Of a DNA stretch of 64,000 nt, positions 24,369-25,456 are shown one piece after another. Where the stretch lies: IMG/VR virus record IMGVR_UViG_3300032307_000369, positions 156,875-220,874 of that record. The stretch is one strand, 5' to 3'. The notes under the pieces are model-generated. The model did no database searches. It was given only the letters and a program-made list of their open reading frames with translations, and was not told where the DNA came from. The first letter of the stretch is position 1. The number at the start of each line of letters is the position of its first letter. This DNA is from a virus. The translations under genes and the position numbers were made by a program.

Positions 24369-24587
24369 TCAGATTAAAGGCATACCGGAATCTTTAGTCC
24401 ATTCCATATTTTCTTTTACGATTTCATTGATAGCTTGTTTTTGCTCGTAGGTCAACTGAAATGCCTCATCAGTGGTAAGGCCTCCACGCATGTACCATGC
24501 TAACCTGAATGTGTCTTTTTCGATGGCTTTTGCTTCTTTGTCGAGTCCTGCTGATATCTCAACAATTTCAGGCAGAGTTTTAGACAA
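24369..24587 (-). CDS. Second frame of tail/hub assembly gene, gp51 position; TTG start or -1 frameshift product
   Basis: A 72-residue frame downstream of the gp26-like gene. It has no ATG near its 5' end: upstream of the possible TTG at 24587 the frame holds only RLRL-type codons back to a TGA at 24617. It contains RLAWYMRGGLTTDEAFQLTY and ends KDSGMPLI, short helical sequence of the sort found in the second part of tail assembly chaperones. It can be translated either from TTG with an AAGG motif 3 bases before it, or as the C-terminal part of a gp26 fusion by a -1 slip at 24599-24605, which would give about 362 residues. Position matches T4 gene 51 (hub assembly), but homology was not established. 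Confidence 0.7.
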   Translation of the reverse strand: MSKTLPEIVEISAGLDKEAKAIEKDTFRLAWYMRGGLTTDEAFQLTYEQKQAINEIVKENMEWTKDSGMPLI

Positions 24588-24605
24588 AAGCCTTAGACGA
24601 AAAAA
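24570..24605 (-). promoter_or_regulatory. Predicted -1 ribosomal frameshift signal
   Basis: On the minus strand the heptamer T TTT TTC (24605-24599) is read in the gp26 frame as TTT TTC, the canonical X XXY YYZ form. Five bases later a hairpin begins: AGGC-TTTT pairs with AAAA-(CTCT bulge)-GCCT over 24593-24570. The gp26 stop TAA (24595-24593) comes one codon after the heptamer. A -1 slip moves the ribosome exactly into the downstream frame that lacks an ATG. Heptamer, spacing, stem and frame all agree; efficiency is unknown. Confidence 0.6.
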
Positions 24606-25456
24606 TTTGAGTAATCAAACTCAAAGGGCACTTCCATCTGTGCGGGAGCTCCTTGATCCACATACTGCTGTGGAGTCTGTATGGTCATGAAGCGTTTGTT
24701 GTTCCTATCGTTAAGTTCTCTAAATGCTTTAGCCACTACATCAAAAAACTCTTTATCACAATTTTCTAAAAACTCTTTAATTTGTAATGGGTCAGTGGTG
24801 TTGCCTTCTGTAGTGTCAATACGCTTAATTCCGTTTAACATCTGCATGAGAGTAGCATCTGCTAGACGTCCCATGGCGTTTGCTGCCATGTCAATACGCT
24901 GTTCTTCACTGAGATCTTCGTTTTGTATAATGGCTTGTAGCACACGATTACTGTCAAAACTTAGTAGGCTATAGTCAGTTAATACCTTGTAGGTCACTGG
25001 CTCAATGTATATGGTCATATCGTTGTTGACTTTGACTTCTTCTTCCCAAAAGGTATTTTCCACAATTTGATCTAACAACGGTCTCAAGTCAATTTCAAAA
25101 GGTTCTTTTTCATTGGTGCCTGGAATACTCACATCCATGGTCATTTTTTCGCCGTATGTGGCAATGCGTATGGCAATTAATATTGCATCTAAATCTAAAC
25201 TTGGACACTTCCAAGGATCTAAAATATTTGGCACACAGCTTTTAATCACGTCCACAGTGGTACGTCCGTTGAACAATGCATCTGGAGTTCTGATCAACAG
25301 CTCGTCTTTAACGGTCAGTCCATATACAGGGAACTCTCCGTTAGCTGGTATTTCTAAACTGCCTTCAGGCCAAAAGCGTCCTTGGCTGGGCAATTTAAGA
25401 AATAGTTTGGGTCTTCTCATAAAAGAAGACAGGGGATTTTTACGTGGACTTTCCAT
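24593..25456 (-). CDS. gp26: Baseplate hub/tail assembly protein, gp26-like (T4 baseplate family)
   Basis: A 287-residue protein of the T4 gp26/T4_baseplate type, needed for hub assembly in T4. Supporting pattern: LTVKDELLIRTPDALFNGRT, then DVIKSCVPNILDPWKCPSLD and LDAILIAIRIATYGEKMTM, i.e. the conserved (T)xKDE, a middle Cys/Pro part, and the ILxAIRIxTYG helix. T4 gp26 is shorter (208). It ends in YSNFFV at a slippery T-run with a second frame behind it. Transcribed from a TATAAATA late promoter divergent from the tape-measure gene. The arrangement, next to the tape measure and with a possible frameshift, is that of a tail assembly chaperone. Confidence 0.8.
   Translation of the reverse strand: MESPRKNPLSSFMRRPKLFLKLPSQGRFWPEGSLEIPANGEFPVYGLTVKDELLIRTPDALFNGRTTVDVIKSCVPNILDPWKCPSLDLDAILIAIRIATYGEKMTMDVSIPGTNEKEPFEIDLRPLLDQIVENTFWEEEVKVNNDMTIYIEPVTYKVLTDYSLLSFDSNRVLQAIIQNEDLSEEQRIDMAANAMGRLADATLMQMLNGIKRIDTTEGNTTDPLQIKEFLENCDKEFFDVVAKAFRELNDRNNKRFMTIQTPQQYVDQGAPAQMEVPFEFDYSNFFV

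Follow-up and report, generated by a model that had tools for sequence, protein, structure and literature searches.

The gp26-like gene of this virus probably yields two tail assembly chaperones from a single mRNA via a -1 ribosomal frameshift, a reading to which we assign a probability of roughly 90%. The window, i.e., the whole stretch of 64,000 nucleotides that was analysed, belongs to a virus record spanning 245,550 bases, in which a T4-type portal, a prohead protease, and a gp53-like protein are present, together with a metallophosphatase/AAA pair of the gp47/gp46 kind. The reading is built on the slip site, its phase and conservation, the coding character of the -1 frame, the homology of this frame to gp51, and the paralogy of gp26 and gp51, all of which are taken from the sequences; the slippage itself and its rate are what we infer from them.

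The gp26-like gene and its slip site

The window's genome contains a single PF12322 gene. Its product matches PF12322 (E 4.8e-7, 30.1 bits, cut-off 24.5) and phrog_150 (E 1.5e-10), the family holding both T4 gp26 and T4 gp51, in agreement with the gp26-like identity that was assigned to it in an earlier sequence-only reading of this DNA. The AlphaFold model of the core has a pLDDT of 89.5, and a BFVD search with this model retrieves T4-like baseplate hub assembly proteins with E-values down to 6.5e-20. Foldseek against the PDB returns nothing significant for either the core or the -1 part, and hence no link to a solved chaperone structure.

The 3' end of the gp26-like ORF reads TAC TCA AAT TTT TTC GTC TAA, with the T TTT TTC heptamer in the correct phase right before the stop, where the sequence-only reading had placed it (Table 1). 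The end of this gene holds the only in-phase TTTTTTC in the 19,587 codon positions of the 29 window ORFs that are 150 aa or longer. The post-slip reading proceeds through CGT CTA AGG CTT up to the TGA at 24371–24369, and the 286 residues before the slip plus the 76 codons after it would give the 362-residue fusion that had been predicted. Simultaneously, the ORF listing agrees that the second frame (24369–24587, minus strand) has no ATG and only a TTG. Lambda slips at G GGA AAG, whereas the window family carries T TTT TTC. A T-run slippery heptamer is also utilized in the E/E' frameshift of P2, which lies, as the site of the window family probably does, in a chaperone gene of a contractile-tail phage.

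Table 1. Features of the frameshift locus and its neighbour, in window coordinates
Feature	Position	Strand	Remarks
gp26-like gene, short form, T4_baseplate core	24593..25456	-	ATG start, 287 aa; PF12322, phrog_150, AlphaFold model
Slippery heptamer T TTT TTC	24599..24605	-	Tandem-slip phase; same place in 185/185 tabulated loci (one is TTTTTTT)
0-frame stop TAA	24593..24595	-	3 nt past the heptamer, a distance shared by 44/51 cluster representatives
-1 frame extension, gp51 C-terminus-like domain	24369..24599	-	76 codons and TGA; predicted 362-aa fusion
TTG, sole early start-like codon of the second frame	24585..24587	-	Not conserved across homologues
Candidate stimulatory stem GGCTTTTG (24592–24585) / CAAAAGCC (24532–24525)	24525..24592	-	6 nt past the heptamer
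797-aa divergent neighbour, possible tape measure	25519..27912	+	Followed by the T4-type portal (PF07230, E 1.1e-103)

The hairpin at 24593–24570, which the sequence-only reading had offered as part of the signal, is rejected as a stimulator, as it folds at only -3.5 kcal/mol with a dinucleotide z of about -0.9 and is altered in a 96%-identical relative (L002). The longer stem formed by GGCTTTTG and CAAAAGCC has a folding energy of -20 kcal/mol (z -2.2 to -2.4) and is retained in L002; it is moderately better than chance and provides modest evidence in the window's clade. In the related freshwater-type (L012-type) clade, represented by 53 sequences, a hairpin begins 7 nt past the heptamer, and 87% of its cells are paired, compared with 38–57% when it is slid. 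Double changes occur in 6 of the 12 pairs of this hairpin, the covariation score exceeds that of all 500 shuffles, and the third positions within the arms are nearly fixed (CTT, AAG). Spacings of 6 and 7 nt are typical of -1 stimulators.

Conservation of the heptamer and of the -1 frame

Homologous loci were recruited from IMG/VR by upstream protein patterns, of which the slip site is not a part. The scans gave 12 loci for the window protein, three for the PA5oct-type protein, and three for that of 121Q, besides at least 519 freshwater-type relatives (80 kept) and at least 597 cyanophage-type relatives (80 kept); L007, L020, and L082 were left out as ending before the gene end. T TTT TTC is found in phase in all 96 loci of the jumbo-type set, four isolate records included, and in 80/80 loci of the cyanophage-type set, and the heptamer falls at the same FF motif in the homologues. 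Among the isolates, TTTTTTC is present in Atu_ph07, Phosso, Cassandra (PA5oct type), 121Q, GAP32, RaK2, SCTP-2, Vibrio 2.275.O, Syn9, P-SSM2, KVP40, Aeh1, and DLP6, and is replaced by TTTTTTT in XacN1, HTVC008M, and phiM12.

At 70% identity, the 185 tabulated loci form 51 clusters; at 60%, they form 21. The codon preceding FF encodes D, S, N, H, A, Y, or R, yet it ends in T in 51/51 clusters (background 0.33–0.75), the first Phe is TTT in every cluster (background 0.63), and the second is TTC in 50 of the 51, though TTT is commoner elsewhere. The T-ending codon combined with the first-Phe TTT would have a probability of ~10^-20 if the clusters were independent, a surprise that is overstated by their shared ancestry. 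Such uniformity indicates that the synonymous sites of the heptamer are fixed. No further in-phase TTTTTTC exists in the 13,361 positions of the 51 cluster genes, and no one-gene homologue without the slip site was found among those examined; the exceptions are the two-gene phages T4, RB43, Aeromonas phage 31, KARL-1, and probably Campylobacter CPX.

Downstream of the slip, the codon-position entropies of the -1 frame are 0.73/0.49/1.35 in 55 aligned freshwater-type sequences, and the frame is 76 codons long in 29/51 clusters, with a range of 57–79. The segment FFR-x-x-LL is kept directly past the slip, 5' of most start codons. These features indicate that the -1 frame is open and under protein-level selection. 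An ATG is missing from the first 30 codons of the -1 frame in 15/51 clusters. The sequence-only reading had named an alignment of homologues as its check, with a conserved heptamer and a second frame lacking ATG; in the alignment the heptamer is kept and the ATG is often missing, which supports a -1 frameshift by which the gp26-like gene and the second frame are joined in a chaperone-type arrangement.

Relation to gp51 and competing readings

Against the complete P-SSM2 genome, phrog_150 matches the core over its positions 4–234 and then continues over positions 227–278 in another frame (E 1.4e-10). This two-frame pattern recurs elsewhere, with similar spans matching the -1 frames of HTVC008M (2e-6), phiM12 (7e-5), and Aeh1 (1e-4), and weakly that of DLP6. 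The part of phrog_150 beyond ~235 corresponds to the C-terminal extension of gp51, which is filled in frame by T4 gp51 and not by T4 gp26. In hhalign comparisons with 60 shuffled controls, the cyanophage-type -1 frame matches the T4-type gp51 C-termini with a probability of 96 (E 2.8e-9, score 47 vs. a shuffled maximum of 16.5), and the window/jumbo-type -1 frame matches them with a probability of 85 (E 6.5e-6, score 31 vs. 14.1) over 34 columns only. The direct comparison between the jumbo-type and cyanophage-type -1 frames is weak (probability 4.8, score 17.1 vs. a shuffled maximum of 16.0), so that the two are linked mainly via gp51 and their shared position. In addition, phrog_18291 matches the -1 part alone of the 121Q fusion. 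By these profile matches, the -1 frame and the C-terminal extension of T4 gp51 are homologues. T4 gp26 and gp51, both members of PF12322, are paralogues; thus, one frameshifting gene would equal T4 gp26 (short form) plus gp51 (long form).

The second frame might also be expressed as a separate small gp51-like protein via reinitiation or internal initiation, with no fusion. RefSeq lists it as a separate gene in P-SSM2, Syn9, and KVP40, an ATG overlaps or lies shortly past the stop in many relatives, making reinitiation possible there, and the window offers the TTG at 24587. We nevertheless regard this as unlikely, since no ATG, GTG, or TTG occurs within the first 30 codons in 9/51 clusters and the R-x-x-L-L segment, situated between the slip and any start, is conserved. 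The fixed synonymous sites of the heptamer also speak against a separate protein, and T4-type gp51 carries this domain as an in-frame continuation of a gp26-like core.

RNA polymerase slippage on the run of six T, giving mixed mRNAs and hence the fusion by transcriptional slippage, appears more improbable still. Efficient transcriptional slippage usually needs longer runs, and the run is held at six here, with C as the seventh base in all but one of the clusters although TTT is the commoner Phe codon, so polymerase slippage seems to be limited and not favoured; furthermore, the covarying RNA hairpin at ribosomal spacing in one clade argues against it. The shortness of the second frame in the window and its lack of an early ATG would also fit a chance heptamer beside a degraded or mis-sequenced gene (a pseudogene or an indel), to which we give a negligible probability, as independently sequenced isolates and contigs share the arrangement and the length of the extension is near-constant. 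A pseudogene or a sequencing error is excluded by the homologues.

One putative frameshifting gene or two genes in T4-like phages

In the preferred reading, that of a -1 ribosomal frameshift, most ribosomes would end at the TAA to produce the 287-aa short protein, and a minority would slip from AAT TTT TTC to TTT TTT and read 76 further codons to produce the 362-aa long protein, with a C-terminal helical domain that would be the counterpart of the T4 gp51 end. The chaperone role of both products is suggested by lambda gpG/gpGT and T4 gp26/gp51. By analogy with the lambda pair, the short form may coat the tape measure protein, the long form may recruit tail tube subunits, and both forms would leave before the virion is complete. 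In lambda, ribosomes that slip by -1 shortly before the short gene ends generate low levels of a C-terminally extended tail-assembly protein, which is absent from the virion (PMC5009743). The window family resembles this, as judged by its sequences, in the short and long forms predicted to arise from one locus by frameshift. Compared with lambda, there is no known sequence relation, and the window gene is not situated between the tail-tube and tape-measure genes but is divergent from the 797-aa gene. Both T4 proteins, gp26 and gp51, have been listed among the hub assembly chaperones, and T4 needs gp51 for assembly, although the particle does not contain it (PMC3004832).

In profile searches, the 797-aa neighbour matches neither the T4 gp29 family nor any other informative family, and the candidate neighbours show no sequence relation to T4 gp29 or to each other. 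The annotators of RaK2 described the gene in the same position as "similar to" a tape measure protein; such a role of the neighbour is plausible, though not proven. The KVP40 and Aeh1 loci are located between a tail tube gene and a large gene of 615–656 aa, which may correspond to the usual place of a chaperone gene. Searches of these genomes retrieved no homologue of T4 gp29.

The T4 genes 26 and 51 belong to the same PF12322/phrog_150 family as the window gene, and the C-terminal extension of gp51 is homologous to the -1 frame, but they are two divergently transcribed genes and carry no slip site, the 3' end of gene 26 in T4 being GAG TTC TTT GAG TTA CTA TAA. In the core tree, which is midpoint-rooted and contains two long gp26 branches, T4-type gp26 and gp51 group together (91/88), adjoining the frameshifting KVP40 and Aeh1. 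The topology fits a single duplication inside the Straboviridae that replaced the frameshift, as a reading and not a proof. In Campylobacter phage CPX (L219/L224), two PF12322-like genes stand in tandem and the slip site is absent, which may reflect a separate change to the two-gene arrangement.

Existing annotations of L015, L017, L112, L113, L114, L207, L208, and L209 treat the -1 extension as a gene of its own, namely 121Q_595, Phosso 319, GAP32_242, NVP2275O_435, XacN1 ORF316, P-SSM2 "gp51", Syn9 gp13, and KVP40.0327; for KVP40.0327, similarity to the final 40 residues of T4 gp51 is noted. In Aeh1, gp26 carries the slip site followed by a -1 frame that is missing from the annotation, and the unannotated gap 118835–119000 (L227:3336–3501) holds most of the "missing" gp51 domain. 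Sullivan et al. (2010, PMC3037559) described cyanophage and marine vibriophage gp51 as lacking the first ~200 residues, the cyanophage protein being ~20% of the normal length, and Aeh1 as having no gp51, and frameshifting is not mentioned there. The "truncated" cyanophage gp51 and the "missing" Aeh1 gp51 would be explained by one frameshifting gene that supplies both forms. Annotations can be corrected accordingly in many genomes, where the second frame is now a separate hypothetical gene or is unlisted.

We lean towards a broader view, in which the T TTT TTC frameshift would be the widespread route, and probably the ancestral one, to the gp26/gp51 pair in the T4 superfamily, including jumbo phages that had so far gone unnoticed in this regard. 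The T4 pair would be a later Straboviridae duplication replacing the frameshift, and artefacts of annotation would account for the short "gp51" of cyanophages and KVP40 as well as for the "missing" gp51 of Aeh1. The frameshift would then be a natural case of replacement, apparently by gene duplication. The data support a common scheme by which T4-like and jumbo phages would make their tail chaperones. They are also relevant to the view that long-tailed phages conserve G-T frameshifting "except T4" (Atkins et al. 2016, PMC5009743).

The sequence-only reading knew of no established case for T4-type gp26/gp51 genes, a claim that has to be given up in view of Vladimirov, Gautam and Davidson (2022), who, according to citing papers (PMC10885494, PMC12846349), identified T4-like chaperone genes. 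As described in these citing papers, some T4-like phages possess poly-T slippery sites and others a separate fused long gene, and PMC12846349 refers to poly-T signals in the short-form genes of T4-like phages. The frameshift chaperone is, on these accounts, already known in kind for T4-like phages, and the window gene is placed with this known kind because the citing papers mention T4-like slippery sites. The two systems share short and long chaperone forms; the title of the 2022 work stresses a non-frameshift mechanism. What may be added to the earlier work are the jumbo lineages, the case of Aeh1, and the covarying hairpin.

Some side observations concern the surroundings of the locus. A SegE-type GIY-YIG homing endonuclease gene (23428–23874, plus strand; PF19835, E 1.4e-33) is situated ~0.5 kb away from where the second frame ends, and T4 segE likewise lies within a few kb of genes 26/51. 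Elsewhere in the window, 44510–54655 (plus strand) is occupied by one ORF of 3381 aa. Meanwhile, a BFVD search with the model of 24596–25456 also matches jumbo-phage proteins of 450–690 aa (e.g., in Ralstonia RSF1 and RP12 and Erwinia Special G) with E-values of about 1e-5 to 1e-7; these are mostly annotated as uncharacterized and are possible distant relatives of the chaperone.
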